Shown here: positions 1 to 53,414 of the stretch, piece after piece
Position numbering within the stretch: the stretch's first letter is position 1
Layout: each line of letters starts with the position of its first letter
Source of the DNA: Candidatus Chlorohelix allophototropha
GTDB taxonomy: Bacteria; Chloroflexota; Chloroflexia; Chloroheliales; Chloroheliaceae
Assembly: GCF_030389965.1 (NCBI RefSeq)
Contig: NZ_CP128401.1
Coordinates: forward strand, 1 to 64,000
DNA length: 64,000 bases
Reading direction: 5' to 3'
Translations under genes and position numbers: made by a program
The notes under the pieces: generated by a model
What the model saw: only the letters and a program-made list of their open reading frames with translations
The model's database searches: none
What the model was told of the DNA's origin: nothing

Positions 1-633
1 ATGAATATCGCCGATAACTTCAAGTCCCTGCTCAAAGGCAAGTCCCTCGACAAGGTCGCCCTCGATGACCTCCGCCTCGCCAAAATTAAGCTCGAACAGG
101 ACGAAAAGCGCACCGTGACCAAGATCAAAGACCTCGACAAGCAAAAACAGCAGGCTTTCAAGGAAGGCGCCGATGCCTCCAGCCAGCAACTCAAGGTCAT
201 CGCTGCCCGCAAGATGAAGCAACTCGATGCGGATATCAATAATCAGGATGGCATGCTCAAGTTCACCTCCCACCAGATCCGCTTCATCAACGGGCTGATC
301 CAGTTCAAGGAGCGTCAGGCGGGAATGAGCCGCTCGGTGGTCTCAGACATTCTCAAGAAGTTGGGGGAAACCGAACTCTACAACCAGATCGCCCAGATTA
401 CCGCCGAGGGTGAGTTCAATTTCGATAAGCTCGATGGGGTGATCAAGCGGATGGAGAATACCGGTCTCAGCCTCGACAGTTACAGTAACGAGGAAGAGGA
501 TGTGCTGGAGATAGTGCGCCAGATGGACGCTGCCCGTGCCGTCAAGGAGGCGGGGGATGCTTCCGGGCTGGAAGATTATTATCAGGAAGCCAACCAGATT
601 CTCAAACGCAAGGATCAGGATAAGGATTATTAG
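1..633 (+). CDS. ESCRT-III-like coiled-coil protein A
   Basis: A 210-residue helical protein with no signal peptide or membrane segment. The first half is Lys-rich and the last 50 residues are acidic, the charge split typical of ESCRT-III (Snf7) proteins. Residues about 24-105 form two long amphipathic helices around a short turn near an EGADAS segment, followed by an AARKMKQLD stretch; this resembles the CHMP2-type helix 1-2 hairpin (KLE..EK....IK.L.KQ...). The next gene is a second protein of the same build, and the third is a Vps4-like ATPase, which is the main reason for the call. The ATG is at the first base of the window, so an upstream start cannot be excluded. A PspA-like or plain coiled-coil protein is the alternative. 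The family assignment is by eye and needs a profile search. Confidence 0.5.
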   Translation: MNIADNFKSLLKGKSLDKVALDDLRLAKIKLEQDEKRTVTKIKDLDKQKQQAFKEGADASSQQLKVIAARKMKQLDADINNQDGMLKFTSHQIRFINGLIQFKERQAGMSRSVVSDILKKLGETELYNQIAQITAEGEFNFDKLDGVIKRMENTGLSLDSYSNEEEDVLEIVRQMDAARAVKEAGDASGLEDYYQEANQILKRKDQDKDY

Positions 634-652
634 GGCGGAGAGGAGATTACCG

Positions 653-1237
653 ATGGGTCTGCTGGATAAATTTCTCAACCGCGACGCGCTGCAAAAGCTG
701 AGCCTCAAGCAGCTCACCAAAGAGAAAGAGAAGAATTCGCTGGAGGTGATCCGCCTCAACGACCAGATTGCGGCGCTGGAGCGTAAGAAGAGCTATTTTC
801 ACAGTCTGATGACCGATCCTGCCCGCAATCTGACCGACCGGCAACGGGTGCAGGTGGTGCAGGATTTCAAGGCGTTGGATAGCCAGATCGCCACCCTGCA
901 CAATGCCCTCAACACGGTGCGCTCCTATATTTCGCAGATGGAGATGGTGCTACTCCAGAAACAAACTGAGGCGATCAAGTCTCCCTTCGATCAGGAGCAG
1001 ATGCGACAGGCGCTCGATGACCGACAGGCGCTATCCGAGTTGGAGCGGCAGAAGCGGCTGCAACTGAATGAGGCAATGCAAAATGCCCCCTCCAATCCGT
1101 TGGATGAGCTGAGCGGAGATGATCTGGATCTGCTCAAGCAGTTCGATCAGGAGCGGCAGGAGAATGCGAGAAGGCAGCAACAAGTTGAGACGCTGCGAGA
1201 AAAGCCGCGCACCCAGTCGCAGCGGGAAACCGAGTAG
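653..1237 (+). CDS. ESCRT-III-like coiled-coil protein B
   Basis: A 194-residue all-helical protein. The ATG at 653 was chosen over a longer upstream reading because it follows a GGAGAGGAG ribosome site by about 7 bases, 20 bases after the stop of the preceding gene. The N-terminus (MGLLDKFLNRDALQKLSLKQL) is amphipathic and basic, as in the membrane-binding helix 0/1 of ESCRT-III and PspA. Two long helices follow (about 22-45 and 60-105), then a shorter helix and an acidic, Glu/Gln-rich tail with an SGDDLDLLKQFD segment that could act as an ATPase-binding motif. It shares its layout but little sequence with protein A, as different CHMP proteins do. The family call is an inference; the coiled-coil character is plain. 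Confidence 0.5.
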   Translation: MGLLDKFLNRDALQKLSLKQLTKEKEKNSLEVIRLNDQIAALERKKSYFHSLMTDPARNLTDRQRVQVVQDFKALDSQIATLHNALNTVRSYISQMEMVLLQKQTEAIKSPFDQEQMRQALDDRQALSELERQKRLQLNEAMQNAPSNPLDELSGDDLDLLKQFDQERQENARRQQQVETLREKPRTQSQRETE

Positions 1238-1273
1238 TCGGTACATTCCAGAAACTGAACAAGGAGAAAGAGT

Positions 1274-2455
1274 ATGCCGGTAGATCTGAGCGGGCAGCAT
1301 TTTGGTTTGTTCCAGAAGGCTTTGGAGCGGGCTAAGAAGCTGGAAGCAGCCGGGGATTTCCCCAGAGCGGCAGTAGCGTACCGGGAGTGCCATTCCCACT
1401 ATCTTAACTATGCGAAGTTTGGCACTGAGGCAGTCAAGGCGGAGCGGCTGAAGACTGCCCAGCAGTACCAAAGCTATGCCGAAACGCTGGCTAAACGCAA
1501 GCCCGGGGTGGCTGCCCTACCCGAAGAAGAGAATAAGGGGGGAGCAGAGGGCAGTAACGAGCTTCGCACCACTATTCTGAGCCTGATTGAGCGCAGTCAG
1601 ATCGGTTGGGATGATATTGGGGGTTTGGAAGAGACCAAGCAGGAGATTAAGTTGGCGTATGGTCTGGCGCTGGCTAAACGCCCGGTGGGGGTAAAGCTGA
1701 GGGGTTGGCGCAACTTTCTGTTCTACGGTCCTCCCGGCACCGGCAAATCCCGCTTGGCAGCCGCTACCTCTTCCAGCCTAGAAGCTACTTTCTTCAATGT
1801 GAGGGTTAGCGCGCTGCTGTCCAAGTTCTTTGGGGAATCTTCCAAGCTGATTACCGAGTTGTACACGGTGGCGCGGGAGATGGCTCCGGCAGTGGTATTC
1901 ATCGATGAGTTGGAATCGCTCACCCCTAGTCGGGGTGGGGATGAAAGCGGGGCAGAGCGGCGCATTCTCTCCACGCTGTTGGTGGAGTTACAGGGGCTTT
2001 CGCAACAGGGGGAGGGAGCGCCTTTCGTGGTGACAATTGGCGCTACAAATGTGCCTTGGCTGATGGACGAGGCGATCCTGAGCCGCTTCGAGCGCAAGAT
2101 TTATGTGCCCTTGCCCGACTTGGCAGCACGGGAGGAGATTCTGAGGATTCATTTGGCGGGTTTCCCGCTGGCAGGGGGAGTGAGTTATCGGGAGATTGGG
2201 GGGAAGTTGGAGGGGTTTAGCGGCAGGGAGATTGAACAGTTCTGCGGGAGGGTGACCGGTCAGATTATTCGGGAGATGAACCCGGGGCTGTCGAGTGCGG
2301 TGGACAAGGGCAAAGCGGCGGTGGAGCAGTACACCCTGAAGGTGAGACCGGCTACTTCGGAGGATTTCGAGGAGATTGTGGCGAAGGTAAAACCGGGAGC
2401 CAGCCCCGCTTATCTGGACAAGTTGGGACACTGGCGCAGTCGGGTTGAGGGCTAA
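1274..2455 (+). CDS. Vps4-like AAA ATPase with MIT-like N-terminal domain
   Basis: This 393-residue protein reads as a Vps4/katanin-class AAA ATPase from end to end. Residues 8-78 look like a three-helix MIT domain (AKKLEAAGDFPRAAVAYREC, then a third helix ending YAETLAKRK). The AAA core has Walker A GPPGTGKS at 152-159, a pore-loop segment SKFFGES at 183-189, Walker B VVFIDEL at 207-213, an arginine-finger region ERR at 228-230 and sensor 1 GATN at 256-259, followed by PW as in Vps4. The C-terminal 35 residues (SEDFEEIVAKVKP, then a final helix) match the Vps4-specific tail. In eukaryotes and archaea such enzymes disassemble ESCRT-III polymers. The two upstream helical proteins are the obvious substrates. 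A GGAGA site lies just before the ATG. Confidence 0.85.
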   Translation: MPVDLSGQHFGLFQKALERAKKLEAAGDFPRAAVAYRECHSHYLNYAKFGTEAVKAERLKTAQQYQSYAETLAKRKPGVAALPEEENKGGAEGSNELRTTILSLIERSQIGWDDIGGLEETKQEIKLAYGLALAKRPVGVKLRGWRNFLFYGPPGTGKSRLAAATSSSLEATFFNVRVSALLSKFFGESSKLITELYTVAREMAPAVVFIDELESLTPSRGGDESGAERRILSTLLVELQGLSQQGEGAPFVVTIGATNVPWLMDEAILSRFERKIYVPLPDLAAREEILRIHLAGFPLAGGVSYREIGGKLEGFSGREIEQFCGRVTGQIIREMNPGLSSAVDKGKAAVEQYTLKVRPATSEDFEEIVAKVKPGASPAYLDKLGHWRSRVEG

Positions 2456-2480
2456 ATATAAGGAGGCTTGCGAAGCAATT

Positions 2481-4655
2481 ATGGCGGAACGACAACCGGG
2501 TGAACTGATTCTAGGTAAGTACAAGATAATTAGGAAAATAGGGCAGGGCGGTTATGGCGCGGTTTATTTGGCTGACTCTGCCTTGGGAGCAGTGGCAATA
2601 AAGGAACTGGCACCAAAAAACTTGAAAAACCCGGCAGATTATCCCATTTTTCGTGAGCGTTTTGAAAAGGAAGCACGTATCACCCGCGCTTTTGAAAATA
2701 ATCCTAATGTTGTGATTGTTTACGAATTGGGTACAGAGGGTAGTTCGGATTATCTCGTATTACAGTATGTAGATAACGGTTCTCTGCGTGGTTTGCTGGA
2801 AGCCCAGCAAGGAAAGCTTTTACCGCTTGAGCTGATATATCGGGTCGCTAGTCAGATTTGCAATGGATTGCAGGCAATTCATAATCATCATCTTGATGTA
2901 GTACACCGGGATTTGAAACCGGAGAATATTTTACTGACCAAGCAAGGGCAAGCTAAGATCACCGATTTTGGTATTGCCCAGATAGGTCACGAGTCATTAC
3001 GTACTAAATCTGGCAATCCACACCCCGGAACTCCTGTTTACATGTCGCCGGAGCAAGCCAAAACAACCGATTACCTGACCCCTGCCTCAGATTTGTACGC
3101 GCTCGGTTTGATTATATATGAGATGGCAACCGGGCAGATTTTCAAAAAAAGGCAGATATTGCCGCCAAGCAAACTTAACCCATCCATTACCCCTGCGCTA
3201 GATGCAATTATAATAAAGGCATTGCAGGAGAATCCACAAGCTCGCTACAACGACGCGGGGTTGATGCTCCAGCATTTGGAGCGGGCGCGGCAGGGAAGAA
3301 TCACTCCGGAAGAGATTTTACGTCAGGTTGAACCCACCCAACTCTTAACTCCCAGTATCAGCAACACCCCTGCTTATCCTTCCAATTCAAGAACGAGTTC
3401 TCCTTCCCCAAAAGAAGACAGGAATGTTTTCAGAAAGACACTAGGCTGGTTGGTGGCAGGTGGTTTGTTTGTGGTAATAGTGATTGCAGCCTTGATAGCG
3501 CTGAACATAGGCGGTGAAAAGGTTACTCCTACGCCAATTTCTGGGGTAACTGCTACACTACCCGCTACTTTTGCTACCACAATTGTTCCTACCACTACAA
3601 CGGCGGCAGCTACAATTATTGCTACCACCGCTGTTGCTACTCCTACCCCAATTCCAAACTCCACGGCTACTTCGCTTCCTAGTCCCACCCCTACCACTGT
3701 TGCTCCCAGCCCTACCATCAAAACGGCTGCCCCAACAACCGCGCCAATTGCTCCAAGCGCTTCTTTTAAGATACTTAATACGTTGACGGGGCATACGGAT
3801 GGTGTCAATTCAGTAGCCTTCAGCCCTGATAGTAAGATGCTTGCATCTGGAAGTAAAGATGCCACCATCAAGCTGTGGGATGCCGCCACGGGTAAGGAAC
3901 TGCGCACCCTCAGCGGGCATTCTTCCTCTGTCAATTCGGTAGCCTTCAGCCCCGACGGCAAAACTCTCGCCTCCGGAAGTGGGTATCCAGAAAACTCCAT
4001 CAAGCTGTGGGATACCACTTCCGGTAAGGAACTCCGCACTCTCTCCGGACATTCTGGCTCTGTCTATTCGATAGCCTTCAGCCCCGACGGCAAATCTCTC
4101 GCCTCCGGGAGTGGGGATGCCAGCATCAAACTATGGAATGTCGCTTCCGGCAAGCAACTTTCCACTCTTACAGGGCATTCTTCCCTTGTCCTATCGGTAG
4201 CCTTCAGCCCCGACGGCAAATCTCTCGCCTCCGGGAGTGGGGATAACTCCATCAAGCTCTGGGATGTGAATACAGGGCAGGAACTCAACACACTCTCCGG
4301 GCATTCTTTCTATGTCAGTTCGGTAGCCTTCAGCCCCGACGGCAAAACTCTTGCCTCTGGGAGTGGGGATAACTCCATCAAGTTGTGGAATGCCACTTCG
4401 GGCAACCTAATTAACACCCTTAAGAGTCATACGGGCAGTGTCACTTCGGTAGCCTTTAGCCCTGACAGTAAAACTCTGGTTTCCGGTAGTGAAGATAACT
4501 CAATCAAGTTGTGGGATGTGACTAGCGGCAACCTAATCAACACCTTTAAGGGTCATTCTAATGGAGTAAATTCAGTAGCCTTCAGTCCAGACGGCAAATT
4601 CCTTGCCTCCGGGGATGGAGATAAAAGCATAATGTTGAGGGATGCAGCAAACTGA
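2481..4655 (+). CDS. Membrane Ser/Thr protein kinase with C-terminal WD40 propeller
   Basis: A 724-residue protein. The kinase domain has a Gly loop (IGQGGYGAVY), catalytic loop HRDLKPEN, DFG and an APE-like motif MSPEQ. A single membrane segment (about WLVAGGLFVVIVIAALIAL) follows, then a Thr/Pro/Ala linker and seven WD40 repeats of about 42 residues that would close one propeller. The topology implies a cytoplasmic kinase and an external propeller. The repeats are very alike even at the DNA level (SVAFSPDGK and IKLWD recur), which suggests recent amplification or gene conversion. An in-frame TTG at 2445 overlaps the ATPase gene; the ATG at 2481 is preferred, although its AGGAGG site sits 14 bases away. 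The gene follows the Vps4-like gene by 25 bases and is probably co-transcribed. Confidence 0.9.
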   Translation: MAERQPGELILGKYKIIRKIGQGGYGAVYLADSALGAVAIKELAPKNLKNPADYPIFRERFEKEARITRAFENNPNVVIVYELGTEGSSDYLVLQYVDNGSLRGLLEAQQGKLLPLELIYRVASQICNGLQAIHNHHLDVVHRDLKPENILLTKQGQAKITDFGIAQIGHESLRTKSGNPHPGTPVYMSPEQAKTTDYLTPASDLYALGLIIYEMATGQIFKKRQILPPSKLNPSITPALDAIIIKALQENPQARYNDAGLMLQHLERARQGRITPEEILRQVEPTQLLTPSISNTPAYPSNSRTSSPSPKEDRNVFRKTLGWLVAGGLFVVIVIAALIALNIGGEKVTPTPISGVTATLPATFATTIVPTTTTAAATIIATTAVATPTPIPNSTATSLPSPTPTTVAPSPTIKTAAPTTAPIAPSASFKILNTLTGHTDGVNSVAFSPDSKMLASGSKDATIKLWDAATGKELRTLSGHSSSVNSVAFSPDGKTLASGSGYPENSIKLWDTTSGKELRTLSGHSGSVYSIAFSPDGKSLASGSGDASIKLWNVASGKQLSTLTGHSSLVLSVAFSPDGKSLASGSGDNSIKLWDVNTGQELNTLSGHSFYVSSVAFSPDGKTLASGSGDNSIKLWNATSGNLINTLKSHTGSVTSVAFSPDSKTLVSGSEDNSIKLWDVTSGNLINTFKGHSNGVNSVAFSPDGKFLASGDGDKSIMLRDAAN

Positions 4656-4870
4656 TATCATATTTGAGGACGAGCGCAGAGGCAATTCGCCCCGGCGCTA
4701 CGTTTTAATCCAAGTAGACAAACTGGCTTCAATAGAAGGGGTGGTCTGGAAATCCGATATTGATCGCTAACCATTTCTGAAGTTATTGCCATATAAATGG
4801 CTTTTTGGGATTTGTTCGTTGGTTATGAAACATGGTGAAATTTCGGTTGCTACAAAGCAGGAGGAGAGTT

Positions 4871-6106
4871 ATGAATATGCGAAGAAGGTTGAGGGGATTT
4901 GGCATATTGACGGTTTTAGTATTGGTTCTGAGTATTGCGTATAGCCCCTTAACTTCAACGCTGGCAGCCGAGAGCAGCCGGTTCTTCCCTGAGACCGGGC
5001 ATACTGTAAGCGGGAAATTTCTGGATTATTGGAACAATAACGGTGGGCTAGCCACCTATGGCTACCCCATCACGGATGCGCAGATGGAGACCGACCCTGA
5101 GACAGGCAAAACCTTCCTCACCCAGTGGTTTGAACGGCACAGGCTTGAGTTGCACCCTGAAAACGCGGGCACAAAATACGAGGTGCTGGCAGGGCTGCTG
5201 GGCAAAGAAATTAATCGCACCAAGTTGACTACTGAACCGGGTTTCCAGAAAGCTACCCAACTGTATGACCCCGCTTTTTCCAAAGACCAGCAGTGGTATT
5301 TCACCGAGACTGGACATAATCTGGGATTTGGTTTTCTCAAATACTGGCAAGATAACGGGGGGTTGGAGCGTTTTGGCTATCCAATAAGTGAATATCGCAG
5401 AGAGTTAGACCCGGAGACCGGTAAAACTTTTATGATGCAGTGGTTTGAGCGCGCCCGTTTTGAATATCACCCTGAAAACCAGAAACCTTATGACATCCTG
5501 CTGGGCTTGCTGGGGAAGCAAATCAAAGGTAGCAATTCTACGAAAATTATTTCTCTCCAATCTAATTCGCAGTTCTCCTCGCCTGAGACAAATCTCGGGC
5601 TTCCGCCTGGCGTGCATTCAATGTTAAATATTCCCTTTGAAACAGGTTGGTCAGTAGCTACTCAAAATTCAGATCACCCTAATTATCCAACTTTGATTAC
5701 AGTTGAAGCAAATATTACACGCGCACAAAGCATTTTTGTTCTTTTACAGGCAGGATGGGCTTTGAAAATATATGAGGGTAAAAAAATAGGATCAATTTCT
5801 CTTAATTTCTCTAGTGGCAAGAATGTTTTAGTACCATTAGTATTAGGGATGAACATAAGGGATTGGTCACGAAATAACCCAGAAGCTGTAAATACAATTT
5901 CATCCCCCACAGTACGTGAGGGTTGGAGAGGAGTTGACTCAGTAGGAAATGTCGGTGGAATGGACATTCTTACAATAGAAATCCCTGCCGAATACAATAG
6001 CGCTACGATAACAACGATCCAAGTTCTAGATGAATCTTTCACTGAAGCAGGATCGATAAACCCTTGTATTCATTTGTTAGCAATAACAGCAAAATACTTA
6101 TCCTAA
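4871..6106 (+). CDS. Secreted tandem-paralog protein 1 (two W/G-rich repeats, variable C-terminus)
   Basis: Start ATG 4871 follows an AGGAGGA site; it gives 411 residues with a Sec signal peptide ending around LAAES. Two repeats of about 75-80 residues follow, each with the pattern F.ETGH...G.FL.YW...GG...GYPI, then ETGK.F..QWFER.R.E.HPEN and LGLLGK. The last 180 residues are unlike the other three paralogs and look beta-rich, with no recognised family. The repeat resembles unnamed extracellular domains I associate with Chloroflexota. It is the first of four tandem copies, all between two kinase genes, so a surface ligand or decoy for the kinase ectodomains is possible but unproven. Confidence 0.75.
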   Translation: MNMRRRLRGFGILTVLVLVLSIAYSPLTSTLAAESSRFFPETGHTVSGKFLDYWNNNGGLATYGYPITDAQMETDPETGKTFLTQWFERHRLELHPENAGTKYEVLAGLLGKEINRTKLTTEPGFQKATQLYDPAFSKDQQWYFTETGHNLGFGFLKYWQDNGGLERFGYPISEYRRELDPETGKTFMMQWFERARFEYHPENQKPYDILLGLLGKQIKGSNSTKIISLQSNSQFSSPETNLGLPPGVHSMLNIPFETGWSVATQNSDHPNYPTLITVEANITRAQSIFVLLQAGWALKIYEGKKIGSISLNFSSGKNVLVPLVLGMNIRDWSRNNPEAVNTISSPTVREGWRGVDSVGNVGGMDILTIEIPAEYNSATITTIQVLDESFTEAGSINPCIHLLAITAKYLS

Positions 6107-6202
6107 CAAAACGAGTTGGCATAGTTCTTTGATTGCAATACTCTCAACTTTAACAATTAATTCGTTTTTCAAAAACGGTATTGGGGTTTTGGAGTTTGCA
6201 GG

Positions 6203-6320
6203 TAAATTACATTCAACTCGACTCAAGAATATAGAATTGGGTTCAAGTATTCCGCAAGTTCCAGACCAAACTTTTTATATTTACTACGGTAGCGTGCATA
6301 GGAAAAAGTGAGAAGAAACG
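6203..6320 (+). repeat. Duplicated upstream region, copy 1 (with 7570-7688)
   Basis: The 118 bases before paralog 2 recur, at roughly 85-90% identity by eye, in the 119 bases before paralog 3 at 7570-7688. The last 60 bases, including the ribosome site and ATG context, are nearly identical. The duplication unit therefore included the promoter or leader as well as the coding sequence, and these genes arose by tandem duplication of the whole transcription unit. Confidence 0.85.
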
Positions 6321-7514
6321 ATGAAGCACAATACAAACTATATTCGGTGGAGCAGTAGCTTGACGCTTTTGCTGTTTCTGCTCCTAATCGCAATCACAGC
6401 TAATTCAACGTTAGCAGCAGAGGAAAGCCAGTATTTCCCCCAGACCGGGCATACCGTCAGCGGCAAGTTCTTGGATTACTGGAACAGTAACGGGGGGCTA
6501 GCCACCTACGGTTACCCCATCACTGACGCTCAGATGGAGACTGATCCTGAAACCGGCAAGACTTTCCTAACCCAATGGTTTGAACGACACAGGCTTGAGC
6601 TACATCCTGAGAATGCCGGCACTAAATTCGAAGTGCTCACCGGTCTGTTGGGCAAAGAAATTAATCGCACCAAGTTGGCTACTGACCCAGATTTCCAGAA
6701 AGCTACCCAACTGTATGACCCCACCTTTTCCAAAGATCAGCAGTGGTTTTTCACCGAGACTAGTCATAATCTGCGGTTTGGGTTCCTCAAATACTGGCAA
6801 GATAACGGGGGGTTGGAACGCTTTGGGTATCCCATTTCTGAGGAGCATAGAGAGGTAGATCCGGAGACCGGTAAAACTTTCATGATGCAGTGGTTTGAGC
6901 GCGCCCGTTTTGAATATCACCCTGAAAACCAGAAACCCTTTGACATCCTGCTGGGCTTGTTAGGCAAACAAATCAAAAGTAGTAAGTCTTCTTCTGCTGT
7001 GGGAACTGTTACACCGCAACCTAATCTAAACAAATCCGACTTGGACACTTTATTTGGAGCAGGTAACTGGTTTTGTTTTCCCGATAGATTAAATGGAGTA
7101 GGGGTGCGAAGACTTGAAGCTGGTTTTAAAGTTCGCGCCCCTTTAAGTTACATAGATATGTGGACTGGAAGTTATAAAGAAGGAGACACAACTGTTACAA
7201 CTGCAGGAGCAACCGCTTTTCTACAACGAATATTACCAAAAAGTGAGTGCCCCTACCTGCCGCCACCTGTGCCAGCCTCCGTTGCACAAACTCCTATCCA
7301 ATCCCAGCTTAATACAATTTTTGGTACGGGTAATTGGTATTGTCTTCCTGACTATGCAACTTCAGCTATAGTAAAAAAACTTCCGGCAAATTATATTGTT
7401 CAATACCCTGTAATAAGTGTTGACAAAGATGGCCTTAAATATGGTCCTAATGATTCGGTACTTGGTGGAAATAATGCTACTTTATGGTTATATAAAACTT
7501 GCCAAAATCCTTAA
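6321..7514 (+). CDS. Secreted tandem-paralog protein 2
   Basis: A 397-residue protein with the same signal peptide and two-repeat N-terminal half as its neighbours (residues about 30-225 nearly identical). The C-terminal part is different: two copies of a roughly 65-residue unit, each starting L.T.FG.GNW.C.PD and ending in a Cys, which may form disulfides outside the cell. The start ATG follows GAGAAGAAACG, the same context as paralog 3. The sharp switch from near-identity to no similarity around residue 235 is the notable point. No known fold was recognised for the C-terminal unit. Confidence 0.75.
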   Translation: MKHNTNYIRWSSSLTLLLFLLLIAITANSTLAAEESQYFPQTGHTVSGKFLDYWNSNGGLATYGYPITDAQMETDPETGKTFLTQWFERHRLELHPENAGTKFEVLTGLLGKEINRTKLATDPDFQKATQLYDPTFSKDQQWFFTETSHNLRFGFLKYWQDNGGLERFGYPISEEHREVDPETGKTFMMQWFERARFEYHPENQKPFDILLGLLGKQIKSSKSSSAVGTVTPQPNLNKSDLDTLFGAGNWFCFPDRLNGVGVRRLEAGFKVRAPLSYIDMWTGSYKEGDTTVTTAGATAFLQRILPKSECPYLPPPVPASVAQTPIQSQLNTIFGTGNWYCLPDYATSAIVKKLPANYIVQYPVISVDKDGLKYGPNDSVLGGNNATLWLYKTCQNP

Positions 7515-7688
7515 TTTTTGGGTGCAAACTAGAGGGAATTCACAGTAGTTTAGCTTTACAGTTTTGTAGTAAATTGCGTTCAATTCGAATCAAAAATGTA
7601 GAGTTGGTTTCAAGTATTCCGTAAGTTTCCAGACCAAACTTTTTATATTTACTACGGTAGCGTGCATAGGAAAAAGTGAGAAGAAACG

Positions 7689-8837
7689 ATGAAGCACAAT
7701 ACGTACTATATTCGGTGGGGTAGTAGCTTGATGCTTTTGCTAACACTGAGCCTGAGTATGGTCATTTCTAATTCAACGCTGGCAGCCGAGGGCAGTCAGT
7801 TCTTCCCTGAAACCAAGCATACCGTCAGCGGTAAGTTCCTCGAGTATTGGAACAATAACGGTGGGCTACCCACTTTCGGCTACCCTATCACTGACGCTCA
7901 GATGGAGACTGATCCTGAAACCGGCAAGACTTTCCTAACCCAATGGTTTGAACGACACAGGCTTGAGCTACATCCTGAGAATGCCGGCACCAAATTCGAA
8001 GTGCTCACCGGTCTGTTGGGCAAAGAAATTAATCGCACCAAGTTAGCTACTGAACCGGGTTTCCAGAAAGCTACCCAACTGTATGACCCCGCTTTTTCCA
8101 AAGACCAGCAGTGGTATTTCACCGAGACTGGACATAATCTGGGATTTGGTTTTCTCAAATACTGGCAAGATAACGGGGGGTTGGAACGCTTTGGCTACCC
8201 AATAAGTGAATATCGCAGAGAGTTAGACCCGGAGACCGGTAAACCTTTCATGATGCAGTGGTTTGAGCGCGCCCGTTTTGAATATCACCCTGAAAACCAG
8301 AAACCCTATGACATCCTGCTGGGCTTGTTGGGTAAGCAAATCAAAGGTAGCAATTCTATTGCTGTGGAAACTCCAACTCCTAATCCATCAGCAGTACCTC
8401 CGACTGTAACGCCGCTTCCCACATTTATCGTGGGACCCTTACGTCCACAAGAGATTATTTCCGCTGGCTCTGGCATATTTGCTCGAGGAGTTTCTTCCGA
8501 TGGAATGGCTACTTACACTCAAGTTCAGCTTGATACATATTATTTTAAAATCCAACGAATTCGTGTAGAAGAAAACCCGAACGGGTGTGGGGTAGCAATG
8601 TTTAATGCAGATAAAGTGTGGTTTTCCTCATCAAGTGGCACCAGTTTGACTATTAACGATAAAGAAGTTGGTACATTACAAAGACCAGTCGGTAAACATG
8701 GTTATGTATATGATTCGACAATTCACATTGGCGATAAACTTTGTCAGGTTAATGCTGATAAGAGGGGCTTTCAAATTATATTTGGTCCAGATATTTGGTA
8801 CCACTATGATAGCTATTGCTACAGAGGAAATTGCTAA
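7689..8837 (+). CDS. Secreted tandem-paralog protein 3
   Basis: A 382-residue protein with signal peptide, the conserved pair of W/G-rich repeats, a short Pro/Thr linker (about TPTPNPSAVPPTVTPLPT) and a unique C-terminal domain of about 130 residues with several Cys that I do not recognise. The N-terminal DNA is close to identical to paralogs 1, 2 and 4. A Ser/Thr kinase gene follows after 74 bases on the same strand. It is probably anchored in or released to the cell exterior; its function is unknown. Confidence 0.75.
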   Translation: MKHNTYYIRWGSSLMLLLTLSLSMVISNSTLAAEGSQFFPETKHTVSGKFLEYWNNNGGLPTFGYPITDAQMETDPETGKTFLTQWFERHRLELHPENAGTKFEVLTGLLGKEINRTKLATEPGFQKATQLYDPAFSKDQQWYFTETGHNLGFGFLKYWQDNGGLERFGYPISEYRRELDPETGKPFMMQWFERARFEYHPENQKPYDILLGLLGKQIKGSNSIAVETPTPNPSAVPPTVTPLPTFIVGPLRPQEIISAGSGIFARGVSSDGMATYTQVQLDTYYFKIQRIRVEENPNGCGVAMFNADKVWFSSSSGTSLTINDKEVGTLQRPVGKHGYVYDSTIHIGDKLCQVNADKRGFQIIFGPDIWYHYDSYCYRGNC

Positions 8838-8911
8838 GATGTTTTGCTATTTATCCCCGAATGGGAGAACCTTTGCTTTTGTCAAGCAGGATTTGGAGTT
8901 GAATAAAAAGC

Positions 8912-10366
8912 ATGAGTAACACATACACCGTTGTAAAAGAACTGCAAACGGGCTATCAAATTGATAAATACATCCTTGAAGAACGGTTGGGCAGAGGTGG
9001 AGGGGGTGAAGTGTGGTTGGCACATCATCAAAACAAAAACTTGGCAACAATAAAATATGCTATCAAGTTCCTTATTAATCCCGGTCCAAGAGAACAAAAT
9101 CGCTTTGAACAGGAAATGAAAATCCTGGCACATCTTGCCCGCAATCCTCATATTATTAAAGCTAGTGATTGTGGAGAATTCAGCGCAACTATTCAGGAGA
9201 AAAATAGTGTCACCAAGAAAGTAATAGACGAGCGGAAGTGGCAAAAATTACCTTTTCTAGTAATGGAATATGCAGAAAATGGTGATCTTTCAAGCAGAAT
9301 AAGCAAGAATTTATCTACTTATGAAATAGCTGGATATTTAGAGCAAATTGCCGCTGGTTTGGATTATGCCCATAAAGAAGGCTATATTCATCGAGATTTA
9401 AAACCGAGCAATCTGCTATTAGATAGTCAATACACTATCAAAATAGCTGACTTCGGGATTGCTCATGATGAGAATTACGAGTTGACACCCTCCAATATCA
9501 AATTAGGTACACCAGAGTATATGGCACCTGAGCAATTTTTTGATGCCAAGCGAGTGGGGAAAGCAACGGACATATACAGTTTGGGAGTAATTGCCTTTCA
9601 GTTGCTAACCGGGAAGTTGCCCTTTGGTAGCAGAAATGAAGGGCGCAGTTACGGAGAGTTGGAAAATGCACGTACGAAAGCAACAATTCCCCAGCTTAAA
9701 CTTTACAAACTCGGGCTACCATCTGGATTACAAACAGTTATTGATAAGGTTTTGGCGAAAGAACCGCGTAACCGCTACCAAACAGCAGGAGCTTTTGCAA
9801 CCGCTTTCAGGAAAGCACTTGTGCCTGATAAATTTCCCCCTCTGCCAGATCGGACTGAACCTATTACTCCTAGCGAGCAATATCAGGTGGTACTTCCCAC
9901 TCGCAGGCGAATACTCTCGGGATGGTTGGGGGTAACAGTAGTGAGCCTGCTTATAGTAGCTGGGATAATGACTATGCAGGCGCTGAACTCAAACGCGGGA
10001 AACGCTACCCCTACGCCAACTTCTAAAGCAACCACTTTTCCCGTAACTCAAACTCTGATTGATAGTGCTACGCCTACTTTGCTTACCAAGGCAACTGCCA
10101 TGCTGTCCGTTACAAGTGCTATCACCACATTACCAATTACTACAGTAGCGGCTCCAACAATAGCACCAGAGCCAACATCTACCGCTATTCCACCTAAGTT
10201 ACCGACACCCGTCCCTATTATTGTATTAACAATAGCACCAACTTCAAAGGCAACTACCGCTTCAATACCAGTGGGGTTACCGACACCCACACCGGGATAC
10301 GGAGGAACGCCACCGACACCCACACCGGGATACGGAGGAGCCCCGCCGACACCCACACCGGGATGA
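8912..10366 (+). CDS. Membrane Ser/Thr protein kinase with Pro/Thr-rich external tail
   Basis: A 484-residue protein. The N-terminal kinase domain shows GRGGGGEVW (Gly loop), HRDLKPSN (catalytic loop), DFG and GTPEYMAPEQ. A membrane segment near 330-355 (about LGVTVVSLLIVAGIMTMQAL) is followed by 130 residues of Thr/Pro/Ala low complexity. The last 30 residues are an almost perfect short tandem repeat based on PTPTPGYGG, encoded by near-identical DNA units, so its length may vary between strains. The protein lacks PASTA, WD40 or other sensor domains; the tail may be a cell-wall spacer. It is embedded in the paralog array, between copies 3 and 4. Confidence 0.88.
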   Translation: MSNTYTVVKELQTGYQIDKYILEERLGRGGGGEVWLAHHQNKNLATIKYAIKFLINPGPREQNRFEQEMKILAHLARNPHIIKASDCGEFSATIQEKNSVTKKVIDERKWQKLPFLVMEYAENGDLSSRISKNLSTYEIAGYLEQIAAGLDYAHKEGYIHRDLKPSNLLLDSQYTIKIADFGIAHDENYELTPSNIKLGTPEYMAPEQFFDAKRVGKATDIYSLGVIAFQLLTGKLPFGSRNEGRSYGELENARTKATIPQLKLYKLGLPSGLQTVIDKVLAKEPRNRYQTAGAFATAFRKALVPDKFPPLPDRTEPITPSEQYQVVLPTRRRILSGWLGVTVVSLLIVAGIMTMQALNSNAGNATPTPTSKATTFPVTQTLIDSATPTLLTKATAMLSVTSAITTLPITTVAAPTIAPEPTSTAIPPKLPTPVPIIVLTIAPTSKATTASIPVGLPTPTPGYGGTPPTPTPGYGGAPPTPTPG

Positions 10367-10543
10367 GGAAGGTAACTATTAATATGAGTTCTATATGGGT
10401 AAAGGATAATCTCAGCTTTACCTTTTTGGGTAAAATCAATTTAGGTGGTATGTAAGAAAGAAATTTGAACTCACATTGTAATATTGATAAATTAACACAC
10501 TGCACTGATACAGGTGTGGCTTTGATTTAGGAGGGAAGAAACA

Positions 10544-11575
10544 ATGAAGCACAATACGTACTATATTCGGTGGGGCAGTAGCTTGACGTTTTTGCTGTTT
10601 CTGCTCCTAATCGCATCTAATTCAATACTGGCAGCCGAAGGCAGTCGGTTCTTCCCTGAAACCAAGCATACCGTCAGCGGCAAGTTCTTGGATTACTGGA
10701 ACAGTAACGGAGGTCTCCCCACTTACGGCTACCCCATCACCGACGCTCAAATGGAGACCGACCCTGAAACTGGCAAGACCTTCCTTACCCAGTGGTTTGA
10801 GCGGCATCGCCTTGAACTGCATCCTGAGAATGCTGGCACTAAATTTGAGGTGCTCACCGGTCTGTTGGGCAAAGAAATTAATCGCACCAAGTTGACTACT
10901 GAACCTGATTTCCAGAAAGCTACCCAACTGTATGACCCCACCTTTTCCAAAGACCAACAGTGGTATTTCACCGAGACTGGTCATAATCTGCGGTTTGGGT
11001 TCCTCAAATACTGGCAAGATAACGGGGGGTTGGAACGCTTTGGGTATCCAATAAGTGAAGAACGCAAAGAGTTAGACCCAGAATCCGGCAAAACTTTCAT
11101 GATGCAGTGGTTTGAGCGTGCCCGTTTTGAATATCACCCTGAAAACCAGAAACCCTTTGACATCCTGCTGGGCTTGTTGGGTAAGCAAATCAAAGGTAGC
11201 AAGTCTTCTTCTGCTGTGGAAACTCCAATTCCACCTACTCCCACTGCGATACCGCCATCTACTGTGCCACGGAGTTGGATAGACACTACACTCCTCCCTA
11301 GCCAAAACCCTCGCACAACAAGACTAGAAGTACAAACCTGTATCGATAAAGTAGATAACTATATCAATGGGACAAGGAAAGGATTTCTTAAAGGGAATAC
11401 AATTCCTGCTAATGTACTAGTTTTAACCAGTTTTGATGGTAATGGTACTACAGGTCGTCACTGGAACCAATACCCGGTAAAACCTGTTTGCTATATGCAA
11501 GATTGGGGAGTTTTCGAGAGCCTTGCAGAATACCAAGCTCCTTATGAGGGGTCATATAGAGGTCCTATTTCATAA
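10544..11575 (+). CDS. Secreted tandem-paralog protein 4
   Basis: At 343 residues this is the shortest copy. A strong AGGAGGGAAG site precedes the ATG. The signal peptide and two repeats match the other copies; after a Pro/Thr linker comes a short Cys-containing C-terminal domain of about 110 residues with no similarity to the others and no family I recognise. It lies after the second kinase gene rather than directly next to copy 3, so the kinase gene is inside the array. Confidence 0.75.
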   Translation: MKHNTYYIRWGSSLTFLLFLLLIASNSILAAEGSRFFPETKHTVSGKFLDYWNSNGGLPTYGYPITDAQMETDPETGKTFLTQWFERHRLELHPENAGTKFEVLTGLLGKEINRTKLTTEPDFQKATQLYDPTFSKDQQWYFTETGHNLRFGFLKYWQDNGGLERFGYPISEERKELDPESGKTFMMQWFERARFEYHPENQKPFDILLGLLGKQIKGSKSSSAVETPIPPTPTAIPPSTVPRSWIDTTLLPSQNPRTTRLEVQTCIDKVDNYINGTRKGFLKGNTIPANVLVLTSFDGNGTTGRHWNQYPVKPVCYMQDWGVFESLAEYQAPYEGSYRGPIS

Positions 11576-12150: not shown

Positions 12151-12426
12151 TACTTTGCTCCTTGCTGACTTTGATTGTCTGATTGCTTGCTTACGTCTTC
12201 ATTTTGCAACATTCTTGCCTTTCCGAGGGCTTTTGGGTTAAGACGTTTTTCTGTCGTTTTGCTTCGCCAAAAGTGTCGCTTTTTTTCAAAGGCGGTGCCT
12301 TAGTCAGCCCCTGTAGAAAAGATTTTTAGTGACACTTTCCCTTACTTTCCCCTTTTCAAGCTAAAATGATGAGGCAGGGCAGTGGCTCTGTTATGTTTTT
12401 TCACAATGAAAGGATCGGCATTCGTT

Positions 12427-13272
12427 ATGTCGAATGATCAAACTAAGGAGAATAACCGGTTGCTACTTGAGTATGCCGGTTGTACAGATAAAGGGCAGTT
12501 ACGCGAGGAGAACCAGGACTATTTCAAGGCAGGCGAAGGGAGGTGGCTGTGGGAACCGGGCTATCTCTTTGTGGTAGCCGATGGGGTGGGCGGTAATAGA
12601 GGGGGCGCGGTTGCCAGCCATTTGGCAGTGGAGTCTTTCTTTGAACGCTTCTCCGAGCTGATGGCTGAAATCAAACCGGCTGCCTGTCTGCAACTTTCTT
12701 TCGAGGCGGCACATCAGGCGCTTAGGGTACGGGGCGAGGCTGAGCTTGAGGTTAGGGGGATGGCTACTACGCTGGTTGCCGCCTATTGTGCCCACAATCG
12801 AGTGTATATTGGTTCAGTCGGGGATAGTCGCCTGCTGCTGTTGCGGAAGGGGGGACTTAATCGCTTGACCAAGGATCATTCTCTGGTGAACGAGCGACTG
12901 GAGCAAGGACTGATTTCTATCTCAGAAGCGCCTTTCTCCCCTTACAGTCATGTTATTACCAGAGCGGTGGGCAAGGCTGAGACAATTAAGCCGGATTTCT
13001 TTGAAGAAGATTTGGAAGAGGGCGATTGGCTGGTGTTATGCACCGATGGGGTTTACCGGGAATTGAGTGATGAGGAGATAGTGCAGTTGGTTACGAGCAG
13101 TCCGGATGCCCAGAGCGCCAGTGGCATGTTGGTGGATGCCGCCAATAAGGCGGGAGGGCACGACAATATTACGGCGCTGGTAGTGAGGGTGGTTAAACTC
13201 GGAAAGGTAGAGCCTTTGACCTCAAATTCGGATACCGAGCAGATAACCGGGCTGCCAAAGAAGGATAATTAG
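12427..13272 (+). CDS. PP2C-family Ser/Thr protein phosphatase
   Basis: A 281-residue cytoplasmic metal-dependent phosphatase. Visible motifs are REENQD near the N-terminus, VVADGVGGNRGG (metal-binding DG.GG), GDSR, TKDHSLV, LCTDGVY and the C-terminal GGHDNIT. In this family the Asp residues hold two Mn/Mg ions that hydrolyse phospho-Ser/Thr. The start at 12427 follows an AAAGGA site; ATGs at 12382 and 12406 are in frame but add an unconserved leader. It is the natural antagonist of the three nearby kinases. A GACACTTTCC motif lies about 90 bases upstream, as before two other genes here. Confidence 0.92.
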   Translation: MSNDQTKENNRLLLEYAGCTDKGQLREENQDYFKAGEGRWLWEPGYLFVVADGVGGNRGGAVASHLAVESFFERFSELMAEIKPAACLQLSFEAAHQALRVRGEAELEVRGMATTLVAAYCAHNRVYIGSVGDSRLLLLRKGGLNRLTKDHSLVNERLEQGLISISEAPFSPYSHVITRAVGKAETIKPDFFEEDLEEGDWLVLCTDGVYRELSDEEIVQLVTSSPDAQSASGMLVDAANKAGGHDNITALVVRVVKLGKVEPLTSNSDTEQITGLPKKDN

Positions 13273-13292: not shown

Positions 13293-14351
13293 ATGGCTGA
13301 AAGTGCAGATAGTTGCGGACGTTGTAACGCTAATTTGGAGAAGGTAGCGGCGGAAGGGCGTTGTGGGATATGCGGAGCGGCGCTTTGTCTGTTGTGTTGG
13401 CGCTCCGGACAGCGTTATTGTCTGCTGCACCAACCTGTTTCCCAGCCACTAAGCTATTTCACTTGCGGTAGGTGTCACCGTCGCTTTTCGGTTAAGTTGC
13501 TGGCGGGTAGTTGCCAGTCCGAGGAGTTCTGCCCAAAACAAATCTGCACTAATTGTCGGGAGAAGTACCGGGAGGAGGGACGTTTGTGGTGTCAGGAGCA
13601 TGCCCCCGCCAATCCGGTAGTAGTAGCGTCAGGGTTGCCCACCCGTCTGGATGGTACGCTATCCACTGAGCAGGAACGAGCCGCTACGCTTTTCTTCGCG
13701 CGGTTGGATAAGAAGTTGGCAGAAGCGGGGACGCTGCAACATCCTTTGCGGGAGAATGCCCGTCTTAAAGTAGGGGCTTTTTCTCGTCGTCGCTTCGGCT
13801 CAAAGTTGGAGTTGGTGTCACCGGGTAAGCACAGTGGGGAGGGGTTGGGACTGCTGGTGTCGTTGCTGTTTGAGGGTAGCGCCACCGGGATTGAGGAAGC
13901 GCTGAATGAGGGCAAGCGTTTGGCGGGGCAGCATTTGGCGCATATTTTTACGGTGGTGGCGCTGGCAGGGGGAGAGTGGGAGGCAGAAGCGCAGGAGTGG
14001 CTGCGTTATACCAGCCCTCACCAGACTTTATGTTTGGTCAAGGTGAGCGAGGAGAGTGATCCAGAGTGCTTGTATGCGGGCGATCCTCTTTACCAGTCGC
14101 TACTGGATTTGTTCAGACCGGAGGTGGCTGAGGAATTGGTGCAGCGCGCTATTCGCTGGTTGGAGCAAGATAACGGGGAGTGGTTGAATTGGCTAAAGGG
14201 GGAGCGCAGTTTTAGCGCCGCTGAGCTTGGAGAGGGTTTGAAGGTGGGTGCGGGACGGGCGCACCACTTGCTAAACGAGATGGAACGGCGGGGTATTGGG
14301 CGATTGGAGAAGCGCAATGGGCAGTTGCGGTTGTGCCGCAAGGGGAATTGA
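13293..14351 (+). CDS. Cys-rich zinc-binding protein with winged-helix-like C-terminus
   Basis: A 352-residue protein beginning 20 bases after the phosphatase gene behind a GGGGGAGGGGG site, so likely in its operon. Residues 8-110 carry about 14 Cys and several His in CxxC pairs (CGRC, CGIC, CGRC, CTNC), suggesting two or three zinc sites, B-box- or ribbon-like. The middle (about 120-270) has no recognised fold. The last 60 residues (FSAAELGEGLKVGAGRAHHL, then a basic strand pair) resemble a winged helix. I do not recognise the family. An adaptor that senses or relays the phospho-signal is only a guess from position. Confidence 0.6.
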   Translation: MAESADSCGRCNANLEKVAAEGRCGICGAALCLLCWRSGQRYCLLHQPVSQPLSYFTCGRCHRRFSVKLLAGSCQSEEFCPKQICTNCREKYREEGRLWCQEHAPANPVVVASGLPTRLDGTLSTEQERAATLFFARLDKKLAEAGTLQHPLRENARLKVGAFSRRRFGSKLELVSPGKHSGEGLGLLVSLLFEGSATGIEEALNEGKRLAGQHLAHIFTVVALAGGEWEAEAQEWLRYTSPHQTLCLVKVSEESDPECLYAGDPLYQSLLDLFRPEVAEELVQRAIRWLEQDNGEWLNWLKGERSFSAAELGEGLKVGAGRAHHLLNEMERRGIGRLEKRNGQLRLCRKGN

Positions 14352-14498
14352 ATTATTTGGCAAGTTAAGGTTAAAGGGTAGGTAAATTGAGTTGGCTTGA
14401 AGGTTATTAAGCCATCCGGTAATATTAACAACAACGTACACCGGTAGATTTTGAGATAAAGCGTGGCAGCTTATTTTTGCGACTGAGGGGGTCTTTTG

Positions 14499-16382
14499 AT
14501 GGGAGGTCTCATTTCTCCGGGGACGGTTATTCTCAATAAGTACCGGGTTGAGCAAGAAATCGGCAGGGGCGGTTTCGGTTTGGTTTGGAAAGCCACCGAC
14601 CTTGCTCTAGGTCGTCCGGTGGCGCTCAAAACCCTGCTGTTTGGCGAGACCAGTATGGATAATCAGTACGGTTCCGGCGCTTTTGACCACTATTTGGAAC
14701 GCTTCAAACGAGAGGCTAAGGTCAGCGGGTTTTTCACCGCCAATCCCAATCTTATTACGGTTTACAGCTTGGAAAAAGATGAAGCCGGGGATTACTTTCT
14801 GGCATTGGAATATATTGAGGGCGGTTCACTAGATGATTTGCTCCAGCGGGAGGGAAGGTTATCGGTGGAAAGGGCTTGCGCTATTACCCTCGAATTGTGT
14901 AATGCGCTGGCAGATGTGCATAACCACCCGGCGGATATTGTCCACCGGGATATTAAACCTAACAATATCTTGCTACGGGTGAAGGGGCAGGCGGTGCTGG
15001 CTGATTTCGGGATAGCCCAACTGGGGCACGAGAGCAAGCTGACTATCGTGGGAGAGCGACATCGTCACCCCGGCACTCCGCCCTACATGTCGCCGGAACA
15101 GAAAGAGAGCAGGGATTATCTCACCCCCGCCTCTGATCTGTATTCGTTGGGGGCAGTGCTGTACGAGATGTTAACCGGCAGGTTGTTCGCCAAATTCAGG
15201 CGATTGCCGCCCAGTCTGGAGAACCCGGCAATATCCGTTTGGCTGGATAAGGCGGTGGGCAAGCTTTTGGAAAAGGATCCGGAGTTGCGCTACAGCCAAG
15301 CGGAGGAGGTAATTAAAGACTTGAGAGTAGGACTAGGATCAGCACCGAAAATTCTACAAACCGAGCTTATTACACCGCCACCTAAGGTTATGGCTAAAAA
15401 GGTTGAACCGGTACAAAAGGTGCGGGTTGAAGCGCCACCGGCGCCCGCAATAAAAGTGGTTGAGCCAAAAACTGCCACACCCGAACCTGAAATAGAGCGG
15501 GAAATGATGCTGCGGGAAATCGCATCGCCCAGTACAAACACCGCCCGCCGTATGCAAATCGGGGACCGCTTGAGCGAAATCGGCGATACCCGGCGCGGGG
15601 TAGGCTTGCGCGAGAATGGACTCCCCGACATTGCATGGTTGGCAGTTGCGCCGGGCGGCAGGGTGGGAATTGAGAAACAGACCTTCGAGGTGCAACCCTT
15701 CTACATCGCGCAGTATCAGGTAACCTATGCTCAGTATGAAGCGTTTGTGCAAGCGGCAGACGGCTACTTCAACTGGGAGTGGTGGCAGGGCTTTCCGAAA
15801 GAATACCAACCGCAAAAGCTGAACGAGCAAAATCAAAAGGGGGTGAGCATGCCGCGAGACAGAATATCGTGGTATCAGGCGGTAGCCTTCGGGCGGTGGT
15901 TGAATCGGCAAATGCAGGGCTGGCAATTTCCGAATTCGGACGGTGGAGGTAAGCAGTTAATAGTGGGCAATAACGCGCAGGTACGGTTGCCAACGGAGTG
16001 GGAATGGCAGTGGGCGGCGCAAGGGGGCAGTCAGAAACGGCTATACCCGTGGGGTGAGTGGCAAGTGGGCTACGCCAATACAGATGAAGCGGGTTTGAAC
16101 CGAGTAACAGCAGTGGGAATGTACCCGCAGGGGGCGGCGGAAAGCGGGGCGCTGGACTTGAGCGGCAACCTGTGGGAATGGTGCCAGAACAAGTACGATA
16201 ATCCGAAGCAAACGGCAGTGGACGAAAGCGGAAAGAGGCGAGTGTTGCGGGGCGGGTCTTACAACTACGATCCTGATCTTGCATCCTGTGCATACCGCTA
16301 CCGCTTCATTCCGAACGTCGGTAACAACAATTTTGGTTTTCGGTTGGTGTTGTCATCACCTTTCGCGCCCTTTGATCTCTGA
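14499..16382 (+). CDS. Ser/Thr kinase fused to an FGE-sulfatase (C-type-lectin-like) domain
   Basis: A 627-residue protein. The kinase domain (IGRGGFGLVW, HRDIKPNN, DFG, GTPPYMSPEQ) occupies about 1-280. An Ala/Pro/Val linker of 110 residues without a membrane segment follows, then an FGE-sulfatase domain (about 390-625) with LPTEWEWQWAAQGG, YPWG, DLSGNLWEWC and RGGSYN. In this family the fold serves either formylglycine generation or ligand display. The C-terminal 35 residues are built of AAY-derivable (NNY) codons and end NNNFGFRLV, like variable regions of retroelement-diversified proteins. The ATG at 14499 overlaps an in-frame TTG at 14496. Confidence 0.9.
   Translation: MGGLISPGTVILNKYRVEQEIGRGGFGLVWKATDLALGRPVALKTLLFGETSMDNQYGSGAFDHYLERFKREAKVSGFFTANPNLITVYSLEKDEAGDYFLALEYIEGGSLDDLLQREGRLSVERACAITLELCNALADVHNHPADIVHRDIKPNNILLRVKGQAVLADFGIAQLGHESKLTIVGERHRHPGTPPYMSPEQKESRDYLTPASDLYSLGAVLYEMLTGRLFAKFRRLPPSLENPAISVWLDKAVGKLLEKDPELRYSQAEEVIKDLRVGLGSAPKILQTELITPPPKVMAKKVEPVQKVRVEAPPAPAIKVVEPKTATPEPEIEREMMLREIASPSTNTARRMQIGDRLSEIGDTRRGVGLRENGLPDIAWLAVAPGGRVGIEKQTFEVQPFYIAQYQVTYAQYEAFVQAADGYFNWEWWQGFPKEYQPQKLNEQNQKGVSMPRDRISWYQAVAFGRWLNRQMQGWQFPNSDGGGKQLIVGNNAQVRLPTEWEWQWAAQGGSQKRLYPWGEWQVGYANTDEAGLNRVTAVGMYPQGAAESGALDLSGNLWEWCQNKYDNPKQTAVDESGKRRVLRGGSYNYDPDLASCAYRYRFIPNVGNNNFGFRLVLSSPFAPFDL
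16250..16350 (+). other. Candidate DGR variable region at the 3' end of the kinase-FGE gene
   Basis: From the RGGSYN motif to GFRLV, the codons at positions usually variable in FGE-type targets are all of the form NNY: Tyr, Asn, Tyr, Asp, Asp, Leu, Ser, Cys, Tyr, Arg, Tyr, Arg, Phe, Ile, Asn, Val, Gly, Asn, Asn, Asn. The non-NNY codons (GCA, CCG) fall between them. This is what adenine-directed mutagenesis of AAY codons in a template repeat produces. No reverse transcriptase or template repeat was found in the window, so a remote element would be required. Confidence 0.45.
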
Positions 16383-20842: not shown

Positions 20843-20864
20843 AATTGTTTTCGCGAAAACAATT
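20843..20864. promoter_or_regulatory. parS-like palindrome 2
   Basis: A perfect 22-bp palindrome with the same 18-bp core as copies 1 and 3. It overlaps the stop codon of parB and precedes the Bro-N gene. Copies 1 and 2 also share an ATTACGGTT-type preceding sequence. Confidence 0.75.
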
Positions 20865-21750: not shown

Positions 21751-21753
21751 GAA

Positions 21754-39736: not shown

Positions 39737-39771
39737 TTTTAGCCTTTATCCTCATTCCAATCGGGGCTTCC

Positions 39772-50720: not shown

Positions 50721-50735
50721 TATTTACAACTCTCC

Positions 50736-52256: not shown

Positions 52257-52311
52257 TAAAATACCTGCCTTCCTGCTTAAATAATTGATAAGGCTTTCTT
52301 ATTAAAAGCAA

Positions 52312-53187: not shown

Positions 53188-53414
53188 ATTACTCCTTGGT
53201 CTAATGCTACTAAAAACCCTAACCGGGTTATACACATTTATGGTGAATAAATTCCATAACAAAACTTATAACAACCTCACCCTATAGCTTAATTGCTATA
53301 AGGATTTGCCTTACTAAAAGGTGAGAAGCTGGTTTTGTGCTTATTTCTCTGAGGCTGTAACCCGACTTGCTTCCATTATATGCATCTAAATACAGGCGCT
53401 TTATTCAGGGGAAT

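Follow-up and report, generated by a model that had tools for sequence, protein, structure and literature searches.

Gene content, homology and phylogeny point to the core of an archaeal-type, Vps4-driven ESCRT system in the bacterium Candidatus Chlorohelix allophototropha

Results

An operon with two small helical proteins and an AAA ATPase

The window analysed here, that is, the whole stretch of DNA under study (64,000 nucleotides), corresponds to bases 1-64000 of contig 3 (C3; 375,274 bp) in the 6.09 Mb, 5-contig genome of Candidatus Chlorohelix allophototropha. It begins with three co-directional genes, encoding the small proteins P0001 and P0002 and the ATPase P0003, which are separated by 19 nt (P0001/P0002) and 36 nt (P0002/P0003) and are followed in the operon by a Ser/Thr kinase gene (Table 1). 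The start of P0002 was set at 653; the mechanical start, 536, is a GTG within gene 1. The kinase may start at 2445 or 2481, and the latter, which is preceded by AGGAGG, is probably the true one. If the contig is circular, its end, AGAAAGGA..., lies immediately before the P0001 ATG, with the bases AGAAAGGACCGGGTGTTTCCT abutting it. All reading frames of the operon and its catalytic motifs are intact. A previous sequence-only reading had described an operon of two small helical proteins and an AAA ATPase with an MIT-like domain at 1-2455, and this held, with ORFs and motifs as described. The system that it drew was too small: it also includes a third, better-supported ESCRT-III gene together with FHA-domain genes, all outside the window, and a gene for a winged-helix companion elsewhere within it.

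Table 1. Coordinates of the features discussed. Positions without a prefix refer to the window, those with C3 to contig 3 and those with an L number to collected loci.
Feature	Position	Strand	Evidence or size
P0001, ESCRT-III-like, family A	1-633	+	210 aa; family A profile, AlphaFold helices
P0002, divergent family A ESCRT-III-like paralogue	653-1237	+	194 aa; family A profile
P0003, Vps4-type AAA ATPase with MIT-like N-terminal bundle	1274-2455	+	393 aa
Ser/Thr kinase with WD40 propeller	2445-4655	+	PF00069 1.7e-43, WD40
PP2C-type protein phosphatase	12382-13272	+	PF13672 8.4e-17
Zn-finger and C-terminal winged-helix companion	13293-14351	+	352 aa; homology to Anaerolineae genes upstream of family A
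Ser/Thr kinase with FGE-sulfatase domain, adjoining the phosphatase/winged-helix pair	14496-16382	+	PF00069 9.8e-39, PF03781 1.2e-37
Family C gene of this genome (outside the window, on the operon's replicon)	C3:346854-347432		profile E 6.1e-39, sole match
Second MIT-AAA paralogue	L099:8158-9315		
Second MIT-AAA paralogue	L123:10298-11449		
Second MIT-AAA paralogue	L145:9517-10638		
Second MIT-AAA paralogue	L149:11027-12148		
Second MIT-AAA paralogue	L130:10367-11479		
Second MIT-AAA paralogue	L161:875-2026		
Second MIT-AAA paralogue	L127:166-1233		

Several other genes were observed on this replicon. ParB and an HTH-fused ParA (window 20863-22776) suggest a plasmid or chromid partition system, and transposase-like genes are present. 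Two same-strand sets (window 36955-40647 and 49374-53262) combine NifH-like (PF00142) with paired nitrogenase-component-1-type (PF00148) genes, and could be relatives of nitrogenase or of chlorophyll reductase. At least four secreted-protein copies in window 4832-11575 share a repeated FFPETGHTVSGKFLDYW...GGL.TYGYPITDAQME module, and further secreted copies with the FFPETGHTVSGKFLDYW module occur near C3:342000-358000; the one copy tested had no Pfam match.

P0003 is a single-domain ATPase of the Vps4/katanin type

P0003 carries the Walker A motif GPPGTGKS, the Walker B motif VVFIDE, the pore loop SKFFGESSK and GATNVPW, and matched Pfam AAA at 1e-33. It comprises an MIT-like bundle (residues 6-74), a disordered linker (78-90), an AAA core (about 104-340) and a C-terminal helix (378-392). 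In a PDB search using P0003 alone, two-domain Cdc48s came top by summed score, whereas the best single stretch was Vps4, at 192 bits (residues 36-336) versus 174-175 for Cdc48 D2. The alignment of the ATPase-family profile with yeast Vps4 was collinear, spanned positions 17-341 with the MIT region among them, and scored 286 bits, compared with 246.5 bits for the best Cdc48 domain. Supportively, the top Foldseek matches were katanin, Vps4 and M. sedula Vps4, with TM up to 0.88 (by target). A maximum-likelihood tree of 62 rows split the ATPase family from the Cdc48s that the same genomes encode (100/99). P0003 grouped neither with FtsH nor with this genome's own Cdc48. These results place the one AAA domain of P0003 in the Vps4/katanin (meiotic) clade and not with the Cdc48 or FtsH type, with the reservation that no eukaryotic, Asgard or TACK Vps4 was included in the tree.

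The AlphaFold model of P0003 (mean pLDDT 91) predicted N-terminal helices at 6-25, 29-47 and 52-74, with pLDDT 86-96. By sequence, the MIT signal was weak: Vps4B MIT was matched at 0.024, Pfam MIT was found in 3/36 sequences (best 0.0065), and equally good scores came from TPRs and from designed helical proteins. The MIT assignment is thus a model prediction that rests on structure. The Vps4 C-terminal helix, an oligomerisation feature, is present in the model at 378-392; PF09336 reached 7.7e-9 in the Thermococcus relative but only 0.13 in P0003, and the model lacks a beta-domain. As to what had been claimed earlier for this protein, the Vps4-type core held, with katanin and Vps4 as best single-domain structures; the N-terminal bundle held as three confidently modelled helices, its MIT identity being weak by sequence; and the C-terminal helix held in the AlphaFold model.

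In the tree, all 21 bacterial rows formed one clade (100/99), present in 100% of bootstrap trees, in which the neighbours of P0003 were Anaerolineae. The euryarchaeal rows were sister to this clade (99/96), and Aenigmatarchaeota fell outside. A second MIT-AAA paralogue, found in some loci (Table 1), fell into a clade separate from that of the main ATPase. Since the eukaryotic, Asgard and TACK Vps4 are missing, the root of the bacterial clade is unsettled, and the tree can be read either as an old bacterial system or as an early transfer after which the system spread among bacteria.

P0001 and P0002 are tied to ESCRT-III mainly through a sister family

The basic-to-acidic polarity attributed earlier to both small proteins held, with charges of +7 across residues 1-110 and -10 beyond in P0001, and +5/-6 in P0002. 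AlphaFold placed helices of P0001 at 3-10, 21-58, 62-108, 123-153 and 166-183, in the alpha0-alpha5 order of ESCRT-III. As modelled, P0001 therefore meets the ESCRT-III layout (alpha0, a long alpha1-alpha2 hairpin, alpha3-alpha5, a basic N-half and an acidic C-part), and its three-dimensional match is not significant: the Foldseek list was led by Vipp1 and CHMP1B, with Asgard ESCRT-IIIB chains lower and unrelated helical proteins intermixed, and no ESCRT-III structure was significant (best E 0.39).

Family A was defined as the ORFs in ATPase loci that were recruited by iterative profile search from P0001, 102 ORFs in all. Over its own genome the profile matched P0001 at E 8.3e-44 (P0001 being one of the profile's 45 rows) and P0002, a non-member, at E 1.2e-6 across profile positions 1-201; nothing else in the whole genome was matched at E<=10, neither the PspA proteins nor other coiled coils. 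Membership is thus strong for P0001 and weak for P0002. The N-terminal MGxLDxF..KLSLxxL of P0002 is common to a Thermococcus plasmid relative (E 1e-4), and an iterative search started from P0002 recruited no relatives. Against the PDB, the family A profile had CdvB on top at E 0.096, which is weak on its own, and phmmer gave no match for P0001 and only chance matches for P0002. The families that the Pfam tally listed for family A did not include Snf7. No MIM1 was recognisable in P0001.

PspA identity of P0001 and P0002 was rejected: neither matched PF04012, none was listed for family A either, and the alignment of family A with PspA was no better than with reversed profiles, which weighs against that identity. 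The same genome carries two PspA genes of the ordinary kind, both on contig 1.

Family C, defined by a search from the third Thermococcus gene, provides the firmer link. Its gene usually lies downstream of the ATPase in bacteria, and was near the ATPase in 28/34 bacterial loci. Pfam Snf7 was matched by 17 of 21 members (best 2.3e-6), and the family C profile matched CHMP3 (1.6e-6), Snf7 (3.4e-4) and Vps24 (0.012) in the PDB, demonstrating that family C is ESCRT-III by sequence. Alignment of families A and C by hhalign covered 130 columns (P 1.3e-4), and a rerun gave P 0.003 versus 0.11-0.29 for reversed profiles; the two families share ancestry, because their two iterative searches overlap. 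Hence the direct link of P0001 and P0002 to Snf7 is weak by sequence and the tie runs through family C. By this route the earlier view of the small proteins as ESCRT-III-like held, and they do not belong to an unrelated coiled-coil family; none of the outcomes that had been named in advance as refuting occurred.

This genome's own family C protein (Table 1) reached only 0.069 against Pfam Snf7. Its gene is followed by two FHA-domain genes (C3:346854-350155; L034:6855-10156). Of 37 family C sequences, 16 had a MIM1-like C-terminus, versus 1.3 expected by shuffling, the sequences being related and not independent, and the strict MIM1 pattern was absent from this genome's copy. The docking mode of P0003 here remains open, because strict MIM1 is missing from both P0001 and the genome's own family C protein.

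The gene set recurs across bacteria and archaea

A scan for ATPase relatives, using the pore-loop segment against 84,980 species genomes, yielded 80 loci. The bacterial ones came from Anaerolineae (including the isolates Levilinea saccharolytica and Leptolinea tardivitalis), many Planctomycetota bins, the isolate Desulfobacter latus, Hydrogenedentes and Sumerlaeota; the archaeal ones came from Thermococci, Archaeoglobi, methanogens, ANME, haloarchaea and Aenigmatarchaeota. Among the loci of >=8 kb, all selected by their ATPase, family A and/or C genes were present in 34/34 bacterial and 36/37 archaeal loci. This recurrence in 70/71 ATPase-fetched loci indicates that the gene association is more than chance; it also satisfies criterion 2 of Makarova et al. 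2024 for Vps4, namely neighbouring ESCRT-III genes. Two loci labelled bacterial, both <8 kb and outside the 34/37 tally, were counted as archaeal on grounds of bin contamination. L151, binned as Oscillospiraceae, matches a contig of Methanomicrobiales at 99.6% identity and is probably such a contaminant; for L157 (Sphaerochaeta bin) archaeal status was assumed from sequence, and blastn against six archaeal loci gave no match.

Plasmid relatives were found in Thermococcus peptonophilus (ATPase 38% over 98%) and in haloarchaea, and two ~200-aa genes precede the ATPase in each of the three plasmid loci opened. Closer to home the system is sparse. A sample of Chloroflexota had family A in 2/400 genomes, the second of which has adjoining ATPase and winged-helix genes; no P0001 relatives were found in 60 related genomes searched; and in 101 relatives the ATPase matched Cdc48/FtsH-like proteins only, the true ATPase being found in 0/4 same-family genomes. 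In viral contigs, a whole-ATPase scan returned generic AAA genes only and the pore-loop segment had no match, so a viral origin is unsupported.

In Levilinea, Leptolinea and another Anaerolineae bin, a homologue of the winged-helix companion is encoded immediately 5' of family A (E 3.8e-43 to 8.3e-33). The large companions in Thermococcus, Methanosarcina, Methanothermococcus and Archaeoglobi loci have the C-terminal winged helix of this protein in common with it, and by description alone these large companions fit arCOG09748 (PMC11188069). PP2C also occurs in Thermococcus and Halarchaeum ESCRT plasmid loci, and kinases occur in 25/37 archaeal and 12/34 bacterial loci. The companion, the Ser/Thr kinase and the PP2C thus complete an archaeal-like locus. 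Kinase genes abound on this replicon, so finding one next to the operon counts for little, which weakens the kinase part of the earlier suggestion that the neighbouring kinases and phosphatase hint at regulated remodelling. SPFH/Band 7 genes were seen in several bacterial ESCRT loci (L104:11079-12656, L123 and L100), as in the archaeal Meth_adaptin type.

Discussion

We consider it very likely (about 0.85) that the operon is the core of an archaeal-type ESCRT system, driven by Vps4, in a bacterium. This reading rests on gene content, homology, linkage, phylogeny and predicted folds, all shown above. ESCRT-III subunits polymerise on membranes, Vps4 extracts the subunits, and ESCRT cuts membranes. 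How the present proteins would act is inferred, there being no experiment or expression data. The two family A subunits would attach to the inner membrane by a short helix at the N-terminus, and the long alpha1-alpha2 hairpin would mediate their polymerisation; the MIT bundle of P0003 would dock on subunit C-termini, and its hexameric pore would thread the subunits, so that the polymer is remodelled or disassembled. The third subunit, which has an acidic tail, would probably be the one that offers the MIT domain a tail to bind. A role as nucleator or adaptor is probable for the winged-helix companion, by analogy with what is thought of archaeal ESCRT-locus winged-helix proteins, and the kinase, PP2C and FHA genes would probably control assembly through phosphorylation. 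As to its job, membrane repair or vesicle budding is probably a better guess than cytokinesis because the genome has FtsZ, again by inference and without functional data.

It could be objected that P0003 works on its own as a Vps4/Cdc48-like unfoldase of other client proteins, with the small proteins serving as generic coiled-coil adaptors and not as polymers. In its favour, the direct matches of family A to known ESCRT-III structures all fall short of significance, and for published bacterial Vps4-like ATPases snf7 was reported to be displaced by an unrelated TPR/6TM gene (PMC11237479). Against it, family C, the kin of family A near the same ATPase in most bacterial loci, is Snf7 by sequence, and genome-wide the family A profile picks out P0001 and P0002 only, not the PspA pair or other coiled coils; we regard this alternative as unlikely. 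Service in cell division, Cdv-like as in TACK archaea, seems unlikely as well. ESCRT-III/Vps4 homologues do divide TACK archaeal cells (PMC11188069), and the Planctomycetota genome behind one locus (L102) has no FtsZ match; but this genome does have FtsZ, and so do those of Levilinea, Leptolinea, Desulfobacter and a Hydrogenedentes member, all of them carriers, and the system is missing from close relatives.

Least credible, and very unlikely in our judgement, is that the cassette is functionless in this bacterium, being either a relic or recently acquired from archaea. The patchy occurrence in sampled Chloroflexota and in same-family genomes would fit such an account, as would the plasmid-borne close archaeal relatives and the ParA/ParB and transposase-like genes of the replicon. 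However, the frames and catalytic motifs are intact, P0003 falls within the bacterial clade beside Anaerolineae and not within the archaeal one, and three subunits and a companion have been kept on one replicon.

Beyond the ESCRT-core reading of the operon, the same ATPase/ESCRT-III gene set forms its own branch across several bacterial phyla, including cultured species. A bolder interpretation would be that bacteria own an old, complete ESCRT class (ESCRT-III, Vps4, winged-helix adaptor and phospho-control, with the second MIT-AAA paralogue in two phyla) that diverged near the euryarchaeal base, was not recently imported, and uses ATP to remodel membranes in cells that also have FtsZ and PspA; we hold this only tentatively and would not yet favour it. 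A linked set that forms one clade across Chloroflexota, Planctomycetota, Desulfobacter and others would revise current views on the origin of ESCRT, both its place and its time, and the cultured Levilinea, Leptolinea and Desulfobacter would give bacterial models for Vps4-driven remodelling in FtsZ-bearing cells.

Comparison with known systems

Published surveys found Vps4 and ESCRT-III systems absent from bacteria and complete ESCRT only in archaea and eukaryotes, and a 2023 review described bacteria as without a clear Vps4. Our search of the open-licence PMC literature found no described bacterial ESCRT-III/Vps4 pair, consistent with the earlier reading, to which no such operon was known. Snf7 genes beside PspA have been noted in a few bacteria (Ravi et al. 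2024, PMC11237479); in the bacterial Vps4-like ATPase loci of that study snf7 was replaced by the TPR/6TM gene, whereas ESCRT-III-like genes are kept here. PspA and Vipp1, of the ESCRT-III superfamily, are likewise bacterial helical-hairpin membrane polymers, but family A is distinct from them, and PspA works without Vps4 (PMC7615534). With crenarchaeal CdvABC and eukaryotic ESCRT-III-Vps4 the operon shares the logic of ESCRT-III plus a Vps4 with an N-terminal MIT or MIT-like domain, and P0003 has Foldseek matches to M. sedula and yeast Vps4. The Halo_FHA systems (PMC10936438/PMC11188069) resemble it in having FHA genes beside ESCRT-III, here directly after the family C gene; the haloarchaeal branch, however, is not nearest to P0003, and homology of the FHA genes to arCOG13166 is not shown.

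The nearest known system is the euryarchaeal 'Main' clade (Thermococcales, Methanococcales, Methanomicrobiales and Halobacteriales; Makarova et al. 2024, PMC10936438/PMC11188069), a match that rests on taxonomy and gene content and not on arCOG numbers or clade names. Here the host is bacterial and the bacterial ATPase clade is separate, and the bacterial companion has a Zn finger and, in Anaerolineaceae, also a MerR-type HTH. Shared with 'Main' are a Vps4-type ATPase with an MIT-like N-terminus, ESCRT-III-like subunits, a winged-helix companion, a Ser/Thr kinase and PP2C, and the two stand as sister clades in the ATPase tree.
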